A stretch of DNA of 35,464 nucleotides from the NCBI GenBank assembly GCA_030622115.1, contig JAUXGN010000003.1, positions 1-35,464 of the forward strand, written 5' to 3'. The position numbers were made by a program, and so were the translations under genes. The notes under the pieces were generated by a model. It searched no databases and was not told the DNA's origin. It saw only the letters and a list, made by a program, of their open reading frames with translations. Shown piece by piece: positions 24,610-31,802 of this stretch. How positions within the stretch are numbered: the stretch's first letter is position 1; the number at the start of each line of letters is the position of its first letter. Source of the stretch: Candidatus Eiseniibacteriota bacterium (GTDB lineage: Bacteria > Joyebacterota > Joyebacteria > Joyebacterales > Joyebacteraceae).

Positions 24610-26166
24610 ATGAGACCGGAGTTCAGGAACGAACCAGTCTACACATTCGAGGATGATTCCCTTAAGAAGCAGATGACGGCAGCGATCGCGAAGCTCGAGG
24701 CAGAAACGGGGAAGGAATACGATCTCGTCATCGGTGGCGAGCACATGAAGGGCGACGGCACGTTCGATTCGCTCAACCCTTCCGACAAGAGTGTTGTGGT
24801 CGGGCGCTTCCAGAAGGGCACGCCCGAGCTGGCGGATAAGGCCATCAAGGCCGCCGACAGTGCGTTCGAGCAGTGGAGCAGGAAGCTGCCCGAGGAGCGC
24901 GCGGAGTACGTCTTCAAGGCTGCGGAGGTCTTGAGACGACGCAGGCTGGAGTTCGTTGCTGCCATGGTGCTCGAGGAAGGCAAGAACTGGATCGAGGCCG
25001 ACGGCGACTTCTGCGAGGCGCTGGACTTTCTGGAGTTCTACGCGCGCGAGGCGATTCGCTACGGCCAGGACCAGGGACTGACGCCATTCCCGGGAGAAGA
25101 GAACTCGTACTTCTACATCCCCCTTGGAGCCGGTGTTGTCATTCCGCCATGGAATTTTCCCTTGGCCATCCTTGTCGGAATGACCACGGCAGCGTTCGTT
25201 TCGGGCAACACCGTTGTGCTCAAGCCTTCGAGTGATTCACCTCTTCTCGGTTATATGTTCATGGAGGTTCTCGAAGAGGTAAAGCTTCCGGCCGGCGTCG
25301 TGAATTTCTTCACGGGGCGGGGTGGAGCAGTGGGTGACACGCTCGTCGGTCACGAGCGGACGAGGTTCATCTCCTTTACGGGTTCCCGCGAGGTTGGTCT
25401 GCACATCGTTGAACTCGCCGCGAAGACGGCTCCTGGGCAGATCTGGATAAAGCGCATAGTCGCCGAGATGGGTGGCAAGGACGCCATCATCGTCGATTCC
25501 GAGGCTGACGTCGATGCGGCGGCCAAGGGCACGGCCATAGCCTCATTCGGTTTCCAGGGCCAGAAGTGCTCGGCCTGCTCACGCGCCATCGTGGACGCCG
25601 CGGTCTACGACGAGTTCCTCGAGAAGCTCGTCGCTGAGACCAAGAAGATCACGGTCGGTCCGGTCAAGGACCTTTCCAACTACATGGGTCCCGTCATTAA
25701 CAAGAAGGCGATGGACTCGATCCTCAAGTACATCGAGGTTGCTCAGACGGAAGGTGGACGCCTGATGTGCGGCGGCAAGCCGGCAGAGAAGGCCGGTGAC
25801 GGCTTCTATGTCGAGCCCACCATCATTGCGGACGTCAAGTCACGCGACACGATCGGGCAGGAGGAGATCTTCGGTCCGGTCTGCGCCGTCATCAAGGCTC
25901 AGGACTACAATGACGCTCTGAGGATCGCCAACGACACGGAGTACGGTCTCACTGGCGCCGTCTATTCGGCGAACAGAGAGAAGCTCGACCGAGCGAGAAG
26001 GGAATTCCACGTCGGCAATCTCTATCTCAACCGGAAGTGTACGGGAGCGCTCGTCGACGTGCATCCGTTCGGCGGATTCAACATGTCCGGCACGGATTCG
26101 AAGGCGGGAAGTCGCGACTACCTGCAGCTCTTCATGCAGGGCAAGTCGGTCTCGGAGAAGGTCTAG
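24610..26166 (+). CDS. pruA: 1-pyrroline-5-carboxylate (glutamate semialdehyde) dehydrogenase
   Basis: A 518-aa protein with SD AAGGAG 7 nt before the ATG. It oxidises L-glutamate gamma-semialdehyde to glutamate with NAD, the last step of proline and arginine catabolism. It is a full-length aldehyde dehydrogenase of the monofunctional P5CDH (RocA/PruA) type: P-P-W-N-F-P NAD-binding segment, F-T-G-S-R-E-V-G, general base E286 in E-M-G-G-K-D and nucleophile C320 in F-Q-G-Q-K-C-S-A-C-S, with the 34-residue spacing of Thermus P5CDH. No proline dehydrogenase gene is in the window. The converging gene encodes a lysine 6-dehydrogenase-like enzyme, so alpha-aminoadipate semialdehyde is an alternative substrate (inference). 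Its last codons are part of a 30-bp tandem repeat. Confidence 0.93.
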   Translation: MRPEFRNEPVYTFEDDSLKKQMTAAIAKLEAETGKEYDLVIGGEHMKGDGTFDSLNPSDKSVVVGRFQKGTPELADKAIKAADSAFEQWSRKLPEERAEYVFKAAEVLRRRRLEFVAAMVLEEGKNWIEADGDFCEALDFLEFYAREAIRYGQDQGLTPFPGEENSYFYIPLGAGVVIPPWNFPLAILVGMTTAAFVSGNTVVLKPSSDSPLLGYMFMEVLEEVKLPAGVVNFFTGRGGAVGDTLVGHERTRFISFTGSREVGLHIVELAAKTAPGQIWIKRIVAEMGGKDAIIVDSEADVDAAAKGTAIASFGFQGQKCSACSRAIVDAAVYDEFLEKLVAETKKITVGPVKDLSNYMGPVINKKAMDSILKYIEVAQTEGGRLMCGGKPAEKAGDGFYVEPTIIADVKSRDTIGQEEIFGPVCAVIKAQDYNDALRIANDTEYGLTGAVYSANREKLDRARREFHVGNLYLNRKCTGALVDVHPFGGFNMSGTDSKAGSRDYLQLFMQGKSVSEKV

Positions 26167-26235: not shown

Positions 26236-27384
26236 CTATGGCGTTGCGAGCGATACCTTGAGCGGCATGCCGCGCTTCAGGAATTCCTCGATGAACCTCT
26301 CGCTGTCGACTGCGAGTTCCTGCGGGATCGCTCCAGCAGGAGTTTCCCCGCGTGCCATCATGAGGGTGATGATGGACGCGGGGAACGATGTTCCCCGCAT
26401 CATGGCCGAGAGGCCGATCTTGTCGTCAGCGTAATCTATCATCTCGTAGACGGCGACGGCGTGATTCCCATTTCTTGTTCCCTCGACGGTGACTCTGAGA
26501 ACCACCAGGTCGTTATCATCGCCCGAGAGGCTTCTCTCGAGACACGTTTCAAGAACGTCGCGGGGCGCCACCGAGACTGCGCCCACGTTGACCGGTATGT
26601 CACTCGCGAGGCCGACCTCAAGCATGGTCTTCATCTTTGTCATATGCCCTGGGTACCGGATAGTCTTGTAGTCGAGGTCCCGCACCTTCCCGAGAAGCGT
26701 CGTCGGCAGCGTTGACGATCCACCGGAAGTGTGGAATGCCTCGAGGATACCGAGCGGCTCGGGAAACTCGATCTCCTCTACCTCTGTCAGAGGCTCTGCG
26801 GTCACGATCTCCCCGTCGCGAATGGCGAGGCAGGGCTCGATGTACTCGTTGATGAGTCCGTGCACCGAGAATACGATCATGTACTCGAGCGGCGGCTTCG
26901 GGTGGACGGGCAGGCCGCCGACCCGCAAGCGTACCCTGTCGGTCGTGTCGAGCTGGTTCATGCCCGCCATCGCAAGTAGGCTCACCATGCCCGGTGCGAG
27001 TCCGCAGTCGGGTATCAGCGTGACGCCTTTCTCCTTGGCCTCACGGTTGAGGGCCAATTCTCCCTCGACCACGGTGTTGTTCCCACCCAGATCGCAGAAG
27101 TGGACGCCTGCCGCGACAGCGAGCTGAGCCAGCTCCAGATTGAACCTGTAGCTCACCGCACTCAAGACGGCGTCGGTACCCTCCATGGCATCGAGAACTG
27201 CGGCATGATTGGTGACATCCAGGAGGTGGGGGACGGCCTTCTCTGAGTCTGCGAAGCGAGCGGCATCCTCCGCCACGGCGCGGTCGACATCGGCGACGAT
27301 GACCTTCTCAACATCACTCTGCCTGACCATGTCATAGGCGGCCGCTCTTCCCATCAGACCGCCGCCCAGGATGAGCATTCTCAT
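26236..27384 (-). CDS. Lysine 6-dehydrogenase-like (saccharopine dehydrogenase family) enzyme
   Basis: A 382-aa protein from the ATG at 27384 (SD GAGAGGA about 6 nt upstream, inside the end of putP). Starts at 27402 or 27405 lack an SD. An N-terminal Rossmann motif L-I-L-G-G-G-L-M-G-R and V-A-D-V-D place it in the saccharopine dehydrogenase family. The middle matches what I recall of Geobacillus lysine 6-dehydrogenase closely: P-D-C-G-L-A-P-G-M, V-G-G-L-P-V-x-P-x-P-P-L-E-Y, L-E-A-F-H-T-S-G-G-x-S-T-L and Y-K-T-I-R-Y-x-G-H. Such enzymes deaminate lysine at the epsilon-amino group to alpha-aminoadipate semialdehyde. It lies 10 bp after putP, so the two are co-transcribed. Substrate (lysine versus saccharopine or another amino acid) is inferred. 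Confidence 0.8.
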   Translation of the reverse strand: MRMLILGGGLMGRAAAYDMVRQSDVEKVIVADVDRAVAEDAARFADSEKAVPHLLDVTNHAAVLDAMEGTDAVLSAVSYRFNLELAQLAVAAGVHFCDLGGNNTVVEGELALNREAKEKGVTLIPDCGLAPGMVSLLAMAGMNQLDTTDRVRLRVGGLPVHPKPPLEYMIVFSVHGLINEYIEPCLAIRDGEIVTAEPLTEVEEIEFPEPLGILEAFHTSGGSSTLPTTLLGKVRDLDYKTIRYPGHMTKMKTMLEVGLASDIPVNVGAVSVAPRDVLETCLERSLSGDDNDLVVLRVTVEGTRNGNHAVAVYEMIDYADDKIGLSAMMRGTSFPASIITLMMARGETPAGAIPQELAVDSERFIEEFLKRGMPLKVSLATP

Positions 27385-27394
27385 CTGCTTCCTC

Positions 27395-28837
27395 TCAGTC
27401 ATCAAGGACGACGTCGGATGGTGGTTCGGTCATGAGACTGACCACCACGACAGTCACGAAAGCCAGTATGAAGGCAGGAACGAGTTCGTACACGAACCCC
27501 TTGAGCACCGGGACGTTGTGCCACACAACGGCGACCACCGAGCCGACGATCATGCCGCCGAGGACTCCCCACTTCGTGGTTCTCTTCCACCAGAGCGACA
27601 GGATCATCCCGGGCCCGAAAGGGGCGCCGAGCCCGGCCCAGGCGTAGAGGCCGAACCAGTAGACTCTCTCGGATGCACGCATCGCGAGCACGAACGCGAC
27701 GATGCCGATGACGATCGTGCCGATGCGGCTCAAGGCGACCAGGAGCTTCTGCGAGGCCTTCCGGTTGATGAGCTGGTGGTAGATGTCTTCCGAGAGGGCG
27801 GATGTGGCCACGAGGAGCTGGGAGTCGGCCGTCGACATCATAGCAGCGATGGCCGCGGAGATGACGATGCCGGCAACACCAAGGGGAAGCGCCCAGAGTG
27901 CTAGTTCCGGCATCACGTGCTCTGCGTCGGTGAGTCCGTCGACGCCGAACTTCGCGAGCCCGGCGATACCGACCAGGATGGCGCCCCAGAACGCGATGAC
28001 AACCCAGCTCATCGCGATGAGCGTGCCCTTGCGAAGCTCGTCCGGCTTGCGGATGGCCATGAACCGCGTGAGCAGATGTGGCTGCCCGACGTAGCCCAGT
28101 CCGATGCCGAGGCTGCCCACGATCAGTCCCATCACCAGGGCATGGCCGGTCTTCCCTCCGGTCACGAGGAGGAGGTTGGGGTCGATGGCGCCGATCCTCT
28201 CCGCCACTCCGGCGACGCCCCCAAGCATGATGAAGGCGGCCACAGGGAGAACGATCATGGCCGCCGCCATCAGGATGCCCTGCACCAGATCGGTCCAGGC
28301 CACCGCGAGGAAGCCGCCCATTATCGTGTAGAAGAGGATGACCACTGCCCCGATTATCATGCCGTGGATCGGTTCGAGACCGAAGGTCGCGTGGAGCACC
28401 TTGCCGGCCGCCAGGAACTGAGCCGAGACATAGAACGTGAAGAAGAAGACGATGACGGCCATCGAGACGATGCGAAGCGTGTGCGAACTGTCCTCGAAGC
28501 GGGCCTCGAAGTAGTCGGGGAGTGTCAGAGCTCCAAGACGTTCGGTTTGGATCCTGAGCCTCCGGGCCACGAGCGTCCACGAGGCCAGGATCCCGATCGC
28601 GCATCCGATTGCCGACCATATGGCCGAGAATCCCGAGACCAGAGCGAGACCGGGAAGACCGATCAGGAGCCACGCGCTCTCGCCGCTGGCTCGCTCGCTG
28701 ATTGCAACGACCCACACTCCGAGTCGACGACCGGCCAGCAGGAAGTCCGCGAGCGTCTTGGTGTAGCGAAATGTGATGAGTCCCACGACCACGACAACGA
28801 AGAGGTATCCGATGAAGCCGACGAGAACCGGGTCCAT
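27395..28837 (-). CDS. putP: PutP-type Na+/solute symporter
   Basis: A 480-aa solute:sodium symporter with about 13 predicted transmembrane segments. It aligns along its length with E. coli PutP: A-G-R-R-L-G (PutP Arg40 region), L-T-L-P-D-Y-F-E-A-R-F-E-D, G-G-F-L-A-V-A-W-T-D, G-L-G-Y-V-G-Q-P-H-L-L-x-R-F-M-A and M-M-S-T-A-D-S-Q-L-L (PutP Ser340/Thr341). In TM II, PutP A-S-D55-M reads A50-S-G52-E53, so the essential Na+-site Asp is replaced and an acidic residue sits one place later. SD AGGAGA lies inside the preceding 31-aa ORF, whose stop is 2 nt before this ATG. Proline is the default substrate from family and the nearby pruA; the lysine dehydrogenase gene downstream leaves lysine possible. 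Confidence 0.9.
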   Translation of the reverse strand: MDPVLVGFIGYLFVVVVVGLITFRYTKTLADFLLAGRRLGVWVVAISERASGESAWLLIGLPGLALVSGFSAIWSAIGCAIGILASWTLVARRLRIQTERLGALTLPDYFEARFEDSSHTLRIVSMAVIVFFFTFYVSAQFLAAGKVLHATFGLEPIHGMIIGAVVILFYTIMGGFLAVAWTDLVQGILMAAAMIVLPVAAFIMLGGVAGVAERIGAIDPNLLLVTGGKTGHALVMGLIVGSLGIGLGYVGQPHLLTRFMAIRKPDELRKGTLIAMSWVVIAFWGAILVGIAGLAKFGVDGLTDAEHVMPELALWALPLGVAGIVISAAIAAMMSTADSQLLVATSALSEDIYHQLINRKASQKLLVALSRIGTIVIGIVAFVLAMRASERVYWFGLYAWAGLGAPFGPGMILSLWWKRTTKWGVLGGMIVGSVVAVVWHNVPVLKGFVYELVPAFILAFVTVVVVSLMTEPPSDVVLDD

Positions 28838-28839
28838 CG

Positions 28840-28935
28840 CTAGTTTCTCCTGTTTGGGGTGAGGAAGCAGATGATCGCAATCGCGATCAGGACTGCAGGT
28901 GGGAAGATGAACCAGAAGACGGTAGATGCCGGCAT
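28840..28935 (-). CDS. 31-residue single-pass membrane peptide, candidate symporter accessory subunit
   Basis: The ATG at 28935 has SD AAGGAG 6 nt upstream, better placed than most in the window. The product is M-P-A-S-T then a hydrophobic stretch of about 22 residues (V-F-W-F-I-F-P-P-A-V-L-I-A-I-A-I-I-C-F-L) and a basic end P-N-R-R-N. This gives one membrane helix with a positive C-terminal tail. Its TAG is 2 nt before the putP ATG, and the putP SD lies within its last codons, so the two are translationally coupled. Small single-helix proteins are known to accompany several Na+ symporters (for example MetS with MetP), which makes an accessory role likely. I do not recognise the exact family. 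Confidence 0.75.
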   Translation of the reverse strand: MPASTVFWFIFPPAVLIAIAIICFLTPNRRN

Positions 28936-28986
28936 AAGCGTCTCCTTATTGAGGGAGCGCCGGGCCGCGCACGCGTGCCACCGCTC

Positions 28987-31710
28987 CTATTTCAGAACAA
29001 CCAGCCTTCGCATTATGGACTCGTCCGCTGCCTCGAGACGGCAGAAATAGACCCCGGCCGCCACGCGGCGGTGAACGCTGTTCTCAAGATCCCAGACCAC
29101 ATCGCGTGACCCCGGTTCAACCACCTCATCGAGAAGAGTGCGAACCCTCCTCCCGGTGAGATCGTAGATCTCAAGCCTCGCCACTGACGCGGAGGGTATC
29201 ACAAACGAAAGAGAAGTGCGAGTGCGGGCGGGATTCGGGTATGGTCGGTCAAGCGCGAGCATCGATAGCTCGGTCGTGTCTGGGACGTCCGTTGTAGGCG
29301 CGATATTGACGTACTCCGTGCTGTTTGCGGAGAGCGGAATGTCGACGTAGCACATGGCCACATCGCCATCCACGATGGTCTGGGTTAGCGTTCCGTTATC
29401 AACGACGTACGGCATCGAATCGGTAGGTACCTGGAACTTGATTCTAGCGTGCTCGAACGACTCCGGGTAGTTATTCAGGATGACGGCCCCCATGATCGCC
29501 GCGGTGCCGTCATTCTCGGGGTAGTACGTGACCCTGAGTTCTTCGCCGCTACTGCCCGCGGCGAGCGGCTCGGATGGGATGATCGTGTTGCCCGAGACCC
29601 GCACGAGTCTGAATTCCCGACCGCCGTCGCAGATTGCTTCGCACGAGAGGTCGTACGGGTGCTGAGTTATCGATCCTGAAGTTGAGTGGATGTGGCCCCA
29701 GAGGGCACAGTCGACGCCGAGGGTCTCGAGATCGATCTGCCATGAGAAGTCGTAGTGGTAGAACAGGACCTTGGCCGCGCTGGGGTCAGCGAGCGCAAGA
29801 TCGTCGTACAACCAGTTCATCTGGCGGCTTGTGAAGCTGTCCGGACCGTAGATCGAGTAGCGCCAGCTGTCGTAGTTGTCGTACGCCTCCATCCCTGTGA
29901 AATGCGCCTGGCCGTAATCGAACGAGTAGTTCTGCGTGAAAATGTACTCGTCGGGTGGCGGGTCGGCCAGATAGCGCCAGCCGAAGAAGCTCCACCAGTC
30001 GCGCCTGGAAGTGCCGTCCGGTGGAGGTGTGCTGTCCCATCCACCGAGGTCGTGATTGCCGCCTACGATGAATACCGGGACGTCGAACTCGCAGGAGATG
30101 CGATACGCCCTCGTGAAAACGTGCCACCCCAGGTAGTCTTCAAGCTCGCCCTCGTTCACGAGATCGCCCGTGTGAATTACAAAGGCGGGGTTGATGATGT
30201 TCACGTCATCGATGACGGCTCTGTAGTCGTCCATCTCTGTTGAGTCTGATTCCGCGCCCTGCTGGTAGTTGAACATGTGGGTCGGCAGATGCGTGTCGGT
30301 GACGTGGATGAAGTAGAAATCGTCCTCTATTGCCGACTTGACAGCTACGGCGTGAGCGACCGTGTCGGAGATCCCGCCCGATGCCTCGACGACGAGGTCG
30401 TACACCTCGGCGGGCATATCTGGAGGCACTGACGCGCTCATGAACCAGCGCTCGTGCCCGTAGCTGTAGTTCTCATTCCAGATGCCAAGCGTATACTCAT
30501 TTGACCCGTGCGCCAGGTGGGCCGACCAGCTTGTGGTCGACACTGGGGCAATCGCCTCGATCGCAAAGCTCGAACCTGTCGTCGTGATGGCAGGAACCGA
30601 CATGATCGGGCGCATGACAACGGTAAGCGTGTCGCCACGCCCCTCTGAAGTGGGTGCCGGAAGAAGGCGGAATTCTATCTCCGTCGTTACCCCGGCGATC
30701 ACGAATACGTTTTCCTCGCCGAGGAAGTAGCCGGGAGGTGAGGCCTCAAGCTGGTAGTTCGCCTGTGGCAGCGTCAGGTCAGAGAAGCCACCCGGTCCCG
30801 AGATGACCTCGGTGTAGGGGGCTACGCCGCTCACCGCAAGCGAGATCAGGGCATCCTCGATACCCAGGCTGGTGGTGTCGTCCACGAGAGATACCTCGAG
30901 GAGCCCGGTGTTGAGCCCTCTGATCTCGTGCATGGCGTCCGAGACGGCTGCAAGATCCGGCTGCCCCACGGCCATGTAGCGAGTGAATGTGATTGTCTCG
31001 CCGGCCGCGATGTCCGAGTCGAACACAATAGGATCCGACCACGAACCACCATGCGAGACGTTGAAGACTCCCGCAGCCTTGGTGTATGCGTAGCACGTGC
31101 TATCGCCCTTCCCGGCCGTCCACTCGGTCAGGGTCGTCGTGCCCGAGACATCCGTGCCGAAGCCGGGGACGAAGTGCAGCGAGTTCCCCCAGTCGAGAAC
31201 GTCTCCGGCCTCGTAGCCGACCACCATTCCGCCCAGATTCTCGATCGATGTTTCGACGCTCAAGTAGCGCAGTGACTCGCTGAGGGAATAGCGGGTGACG
31301 ACTCTGAGGTCGCTGTCGTCCGAGTCCCAGCCTACGGCTCGTATCACCGCCGTACCCATCGAGCCATCGCTCTCCACGACGACCGAGTCGTAGACTGCCT
31401 GCCGAGGGTAGTCGACCAGGAGCGTAAGGTGATACTCGAACTCATCTATCAGTGTCGCTTCTGGGGCGGCATCGATGATATTGCCGCCGGACTCGCTCGA
31501 CCCATGAGTGTATGTCTGTCCGCTGATGATGACCGCGATCACACCGTTTGACAGGAGGAAATCGCCGAGCCGGCCGTCGGCGGCCGCACCGGTTAGAAGA
31601 TCGGCCTCATCATCAATGATGTGAGCCACTACGTCCGCGCGGGCTGCACCCGCGCAGACCAGGATCAACATGAATAGCGTGGAAATAGACAATGCCCTGA
31701 GCGTTTTCAC
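28987..31710 (-). CDS. Exported metallophosphoesterase with large N-terminal beta region and sorting domain
   Basis: A 907-aa protein from the GTG at 31710, preferred because GGAG lies 9-10 nt upstream and a signal peptide follows at once (M-K-T-L-R...A-R-A). An in-frame ATG at 31740 lacks an SD. Residues about 25-270 are an unassigned beta-rich domain, 270-360 a carboxypeptidase-regulatory-like domain, and 370-460 another beta domain. A calcineurin-type phosphoesterase follows (about 465-690): D472-x-H474, H-T-G-D-L-V-N, G-N552-H553-D554, F-Y-H-Y and G-H673-x-H675, the complete two-metal set. A FlgD-Ig-like tail (about 830-907) begins P-Y-P-N-P and ends L-V-V-L-K. The substrate is not deducible. 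It ends 51 bp before the start of the small membrane peptide. Confidence 0.88.
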   Translation of the reverse strand: MKTLRALSISTLFMLILVCAGAARADVVAHIIDDEADLLTGAAADGRLGDFLLSNGVIAVIISGQTYTHGSSESGGNIIDAAPEATLIDEFEYHLTLLVDYPRQAVYDSVVVESDGSMGTAVIRAVGWDSDDSDLRVVTRYSLSESLRYLSVETSIENLGGMVVGYEAGDVLDWGNSLHFVPGFGTDVSGTTTLTEWTAGKGDSTCYAYTKAAGVFNVSHGGSWSDPIVFDSDIAAGETITFTRYMAVGQPDLAAVSDAMHEIRGLNTGLLEVSLVDDTTSLGIEDALISLAVSGVAPYTEVISGPGGFSDLTLPQANYQLEASPPGYFLGEENVFVIAGVTTEIEFRLLPAPTSEGRGDTLTVVMRPIMSVPAITTTGSSFAIEAIAPVSTTSWSAHLAHGSNEYTLGIWNENYSYGHERWFMSASVPPDMPAEVYDLVVEASGGISDTVAHAVAVKSAIEDDFYFIHVTDTHLPTHMFNYQQGAESDSTEMDDYRAVIDDVNIINPAFVIHTGDLVNEGELEDYLGWHVFTRAYRISCEFDVPVFIVGGNHDLGGWDSTPPPDGTSRRDWWSFFGWRYLADPPPDEYIFTQNYSFDYGQAHFTGMEAYDNYDSWRYSIYGPDSFTSRQMNWLYDDLALADPSAAKVLFYHYDFSWQIDLETLGVDCALWGHIHSTSGSITQHPYDLSCEAICDGGREFRLVRVSGNTIIPSEPLAAGSSGEELRVTYYPENDGTAAIMGAVILNNYPESFEHARIKFQVPTDSMPYVVDNGTLTQTIVDGDVAMCYVDIPLSANSTEYVNIAPTTDVPDTTELSMLALDRPYPNPARTRTSLSFVIPSASVARLEIYDLTGRRVRTLLDEVVEPGSRDVVWDLENSVHRRVAAGVYFCRLEAADESIMRRLVVLK

Positions 31711-31802
31711 AGTTGCTTCTCCAGATGAGGGGCGGAGCATCAGGGGTGGAAATCAGCTTCGATTTCCATTCTAACACGTGAACGGACGGAATCACAGCAT
31801 AC

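Follow-up and report, generated by a model that had tools for sequence, protein, structure and literature searches.

Animals have a single-helix partner of transporters in the sodium:solute symporter (SSS) family, MAP17, and annotation points to one prokaryotic family of such partners, NF045580. MAP17 (PDZK1IP1) is an auxiliary subunit of human SGLT1 and SGLT2, and its single helix sits on TM13 of SGLT2, which it is thought to stabilise (PMC10803289). NF045580 is annotated as a "symporter small accessory protein", and at most of its loci that we read the short frame immediately precedes an SSS gene. Sodium symporters of the NSS type also have a small membrane peptide encoded next to them, the MetS-type small subunit. 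In the literature searched, we found no paper that tests the function of single-helix SSS partners in microbes, and none on the peptide family described here.

The window, which is the whole stretch of DNA that was analysed (35,464 nt), contains a reading frame for a 31-residue peptide directly in front of the gene for a PutP-like symporter. The features of this region are as follows:

24610..26166, plus strand: delta-1-pyrroline-5-carboxylate (L-glutamate gamma-semialdehyde) dehydrogenase, a convergent neighbour (TIGR01237, 681 bits; cut-off 659.65)
26236..27405, minus strand: saccharopine-dehydrogenase-like protein, overlapping the end of the symporter gene and kept downstream of the symporter in the family
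27395..28837, minus strand: PutP-like sodium:solute symporter, 480 aa, the putative partner of the peptide (PF00474, 299 bits, which places it in the SSS family; TIGR02121 (PutP), 478 bits, just below the equivalog cut-off of 515.5)
28840..28935, minus strand: gene for the 31-aa predicted single-helix membrane peptide, product MPASTVFWFIFPPAVLIAIAIICFLTPNRRN (comparative data, AlphaFold)
28847..28851, minus strand: symporter ribosome-binding site AGGAG, within the final codons of the peptide
28942..28947, minus strand: peptide ribosome-binding site AAGGAG, 6 nt upstream of the peptide ATG
28987..31740, minus strand: secreted metallophosphoesterase with a sorting-type tail, a conserved upstream gene in the family, its stop 51 nt before the peptide start

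The symporter is distantly related to SGLT1 and SGLT2, and its named relatives come from Candidatus Eisenbacteria MAGs. Its substrate is likely to be proline or a close relative, because the adjoining delta-1-pyrroline-5-carboxylate dehydrogenase gene stays beside the symporter in relatives. Residues D55-M56 of E. coli PutP, in the region tied to sodium binding, are replaced by G-E (SERASGES) in the window symporter (27395-28837), and many of the related symporters share this replacement whether or not they have the peptide. On the other side of the peptide, a search for a terminator between the metallophosphoesterase gene and the peptide gene found none. In one Zixibacteria clade (L020, L021, L025), the gene just upstream of the peptide encodes a conserved membrane protein, about 400 residues long.

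The peptide frame runs on the minus strand from an ATG at 28935 to a TAG stop ending at 28840; after a gap of 2 nt, the symporter ATG follows at 28837. The initial annotation had argued that this is a real gene on the basis of a good Shine-Dalgarno sequence ahead of it, a stop 2 nt from the symporter ATG, and a symporter Shine-Dalgarno sequence inside its last codons, and the coordinates bear out all three. It had also called for a search for short frames upstream of PutP-like genes, and had named conservation of such a frame before orthologues and constraint at the protein level as the observations on which the gene depends; a conserved frame was found in several phyla, and protein-level constraint was seen as well. 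In 11/11 distinct Eisenbacteria loci for which there is upstream DNA, the same peptide occupies the same position; its start is ATG or GTG, and an AGGAG-type site is kept before it in every one of the 11. The in-frame pN/pS is 0.47 compared with 1.04 (sd 0.23) for column shuffles, none of 200 being as low, although over 31 codons this is a coarse measure and column shuffles ignore the tree. In the relatives, the tail codons AGG AGC TAG double as the symporter ribosome site, so conservation of the tail alone is not evidence for a protein. For this reason the calculation was repeated on codons 2-24, leaving out the overlapping tail, and gave 0.41, a value that none of 300 shuffles (mean near 1.0) reached. 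The symporter has a pN/pS of 0.15 over its first 200 codons, and to judge from these substitutions the peptide is constrained, though less tightly than the symporter.

AlphaFold, run on the peptide alone, predicts one helix spanning residues 3-25 with a mean pLDDT of 87, and the hydropathy of 2.79 over 17 residues is that of a single transmembrane helix, in keeping with the hydrophobic helix and basic tail first recognised in the sequence. The family consensus is MPFWTxFWxxVPPxVLxxxxxIFF, in which P12 is invariant and P13 and W8 are nearly so. We dropped the idea of one conserved helix face, as conservation along the helix showed no significant pattern of this kind (p = 0.23 to 0.49). A Pfam-A scan of the peptide returned zero families (MetS-like, DUF485, DUF4212, and others included) and an NCBIfam scan returned no family match, so the remark in the initial annotation that the peptide fits no known family holds for both collections. 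The gene is uncatalogued.

A profile built from 36 peptides matches 12 of 61 related genomes, and every match lies directly upstream of the cognate symporter. Conversely, all 12 genomes among the 61 that hold the cognate symporter start have the peptide directly upstream, and the other relatives have none; close relatives that lack the cognate symporter, such as G001, G002, and G005 (99-100% complete), also lack the peptide. In a sample of 132 genomes from the phylum Zixibacteria, the peptide lies directly upstream (within about 60 nt) of 24 of the 28 symporters with at least 50% identity. The exceptions are the symporters of G062, G063, and G093, which have no peptide, and G070, in which the peptide is on another contig. 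Another 26 Zixibacteria symporters, which form a separate clade in the tree and carry SASASSES or SASASAES motifs, have no peptide upstream. The peptide or a diverged form of it also precedes symporters in KSB1, Krumholzibacteria-like, and Myxococcota bins. A wide spread in Myxococcota is ruled out, as only 1 of 379 genomes has the peptide, and the "Deltaproteobacteria" case is thus a lone transfer or a misbinned contig. None of the 30 Marinisomatota symporter loci examined has the peptide upstream. Since these symporters and those of G062, G063, and G093 belong to the same clade, the peptide is not universally required by the symporter, bearing in mind that the genomes are mostly MAGs and some absences may be gaps.

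The initial annotation had further proposed that an A-S-G-E motif in TM II marks the symporters that carry the peptide. This we reject, because Marinisomatota symporters have SERASGES and no peptide, while archaeal symporters with a companion helix, described below, have SDMS; the SGES motif is not a marker. At several Marinisomatota loci (L165, L177, L181, L182, L185, L190, L193), the gene that ends just ahead of symporters of the same clade is one for a different membrane protein, which by eye looks like the undecaprenyl-diphosphatase type. Hydrophobic frames before the Marinisomatota symporters were rejected as kin of the peptide (profile match only 0.2%). A second SSS paralogue (SFVAAYFSS type) is also directly preceded by a short frame, of 40-46 residues, which reads MxGPFGxxWxTFxALLV... 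and has an acidic GGDE tail. It is present in all 16 loci seen (L002, at G000:C24:49409-50803, and 15 more, e.g., L072, L073, and L149-L160), and the members scanned have no Pfam or NCBIfam match. Kinship of the window peptide with this acidic-tailed peptide is not established (7-15%).

A counterpart is found in archaea. In 10/10 Thermoplasmatota loci with readable upstream DNA (L031, L032, L035, L038, L115-L119, L122), a symporter of the same superclade has a gene ahead of it that overlaps the symporter start by ATGA. Complete copies of this gene are open frames of 880-909 codons, and its 3' end codes for a C-terminal helix that carries a basic tail. The copy scanned (L032) starts with hydrophobic residues resembling a signal peptide and contains PF04916, a phospholipase-B-like domain (45.5 bits), and PF13360, a beta-propeller of the BamB/PQQ type (210 bits). 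Compared with the bacterial peptide profile, the archaeal tail profile gives 92% probability and a score of 28.3. Convergence can easily produce profile matches between single helices, and for this reason controls were run: the best of 200 column shuffles scored 18.1 and the best of 200 core-only shuffles 23.4, while among 76 transmembrane windows drawn from three symporter alignments the highest score was 12.6. Only the profile-profile comparison separates the match from background, as archaeal sequences scored one at a time against the bacterial profile do not exceed the best random transmembrane windows. The archaeal helix and the bacterial peptide are therefore likely to share ancestry, although this is not certain for so short a helix; shared position, orientation, and tail add weight. 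No description of the archaeal fused form was found in the literature searched.

Five Zixibacteria genomes (G202, G204, G206, G207, G070) have a family peptide (MPFWTAFWAVVPP... type) that is not followed by an intact symporter. In the first four, all SSS genes are distant ones and a cognate symporter is lacking; the cognate symporter of G070 lies elsewhere. In G202, a decayed PutP-like symporter start (tblastn E 4e-5) is found directly behind the intact peptide gene, at about 709-857 of locus L221. In the other four, a PF12674 zinc-ribbon gene, itself preceded by a conserved stretch, lies about 300 nt beyond the orphan peptide (L222, L223, L224, L225). Across these four genomes the peptide has a pN/pS of 0.26, and none of 500 shuffles was as low. 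As copies with no symporter behind them are more strongly constrained than the family (0.26 vs 0.47), the peptide matters as a protein and not merely as a cis-acting leader.

Several explanations of the frame need to be weighed. It is very short and has no match in Pfam or NCBIfam, as could be expected of an open frame arising by chance or of an annotation artefact, but its sequence, start, and ribosome site are kept in all 11 family loci and in other phyla, and its substitutions are of the coding type. The comparative data have already refuted this explanation, the probability of which we regard as negligible; on the same data the frame is a protein-coding gene, far beyond chance, as first proposed. 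The arrangement of the two genes raises a different question. The spacing between peptide and symporter mostly falls between -4 and +4 nt, and 21 of 44 distinct pairs, counting the archaeal loci, overlap by the 4 nt of ATGA, a layout that would suit termination-reinitiation. The translational coupling claimed in the initial annotation draws support from this arrangement, which is the basis for it. Very tight spacing, ATGA overlaps, and a symporter ribosome site inside the frame might also be features of a cis-acting leader, in which translation of a short hydrophobic frame would open the symporter ribosome site and carry the mRNA to the membrane while the product itself has no job. This is distinctly improbable, since T5, F7, W8, P12, P13, and L16 are preserved across phyla, the strongest constraint is seen where no symporter follows, and archaea fill the same place with the anchor of a large protein. 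Searches around the frame also found no Rfam match, terminator, or attenuator, and control by an attenuator, riboswitch, or terminator was rejected accordingly.

A protein-level role need not involve the symporter. The peptide could be an independent small membrane protein, with another partner or a general role in the membrane, that merely shares the symporter operon. The persistence of symporter-free copies in G202, G204, G206, and G207, the unlinked peptide of G070, and the several related symporters that do without a peptide all speak for this. Against it, the link to one symporter clade is held across several phyla despite varied surroundings, and peptide and symporter are jointly absent in close relatives. 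The decayed symporter start in G202 makes the orphans look like leftovers of a pair that were later retained. We therefore consider full independence rather unlikely, although the peptide may also act in trans or with another partner, as the four Zixibacteria genomes with a peptide and no cognate symporter suggest that it may have, or may have gained, one.

Conservation across several bacterial phyla, together with the apparent archaeal fusion to a large secreted enzyme, points to a helper helix that probably binds the transporter. The reading we favour, with reasonable confidence, is that the peptide is a one-helix inner-membrane microprotein that serves as an auxiliary helix of the PutP-like symporter, similar to MAP17. 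The accessory-subunit role put forward in the initial annotation would agree with this. The peptide would be made from the symporter mRNA, just ahead of the symporter, which would itself probably be translated by stop-and-restart after the peptide. The archaeal layout, with a signal-peptide-like N-terminus, extracytoplasmic domains, and a C-terminal helix, suggests that the N-terminus of the helix lies outside and the basic tail inside. In the membrane, the helix may pack against the symporter, and this contact would influence transport, aiding the folding, stability, or activity of the symporter as MAP17 does for SGLT2. More tentatively, and with somewhat less than an even chance of being right, the peptide may be the free, bacterial version of a modular docking helix that serves this symporter clade. 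Thermoplasmatota would then use that helix as a C-terminal anchor tethering a secreted phospholipase-B-like/beta-propeller enzyme, which may release substrate to the importing symporter.

The comparison with described systems is closest in arrangement for NF045580, as both are short single-helix frames directly before an SSS gene. NF045580 has 33 positions and a core of about 33 residues, compared with 31 aa for the window peptide, but it differs in sequence (MLGxxDxxxxxAYxLCxxxxxxCxxYGxxNWN), in its acidic tail, and in the SSS subfamily that it accompanies. By hmmscan at the curated 35-bit cut-off, neither the window peptide nor the relatives scanned match NF045580, and scans of the window's genome and of 28 genomes around related symporters found no copy of the family. 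Kinship was rejected after the peptide alignment, compared with 10 members by hhalign, gave 0.6% probability and a score of 9.3. The shared arrangement thus speaks for working alike and not for membership; the peptide is of the same kind as NF045580 but by sequence belongs to a different, unnamed family. MetS-type subunits have NSS transporters as partners, whereas the probable partner of the window peptide is of the SSS family. E. coli PutP aligns with the window symporter along its whole length, yet the sole short frame upstream of its gene is YmdG, 8 residues long and about 160 nt away, and there is no adjacent hydrophobic short frame. MAP17, like the peptide in its putative pairing, is a single helix with an SSS-family symporter, but it is an animal protein with soluble ends and is not operon-linked, so the likeness is one of analogy only. 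As this case shows, likely subunits of ordinary transporters can be overlooked in gene catalogues. The unnamed family offers a clear motif, a tight link to its symporter, losses and orphans that arose naturally, and what appears to be a fusion to an extracytoplasmic enzyme in archaea, which together make the role of such helices for LeuT-fold symporters directly testable.
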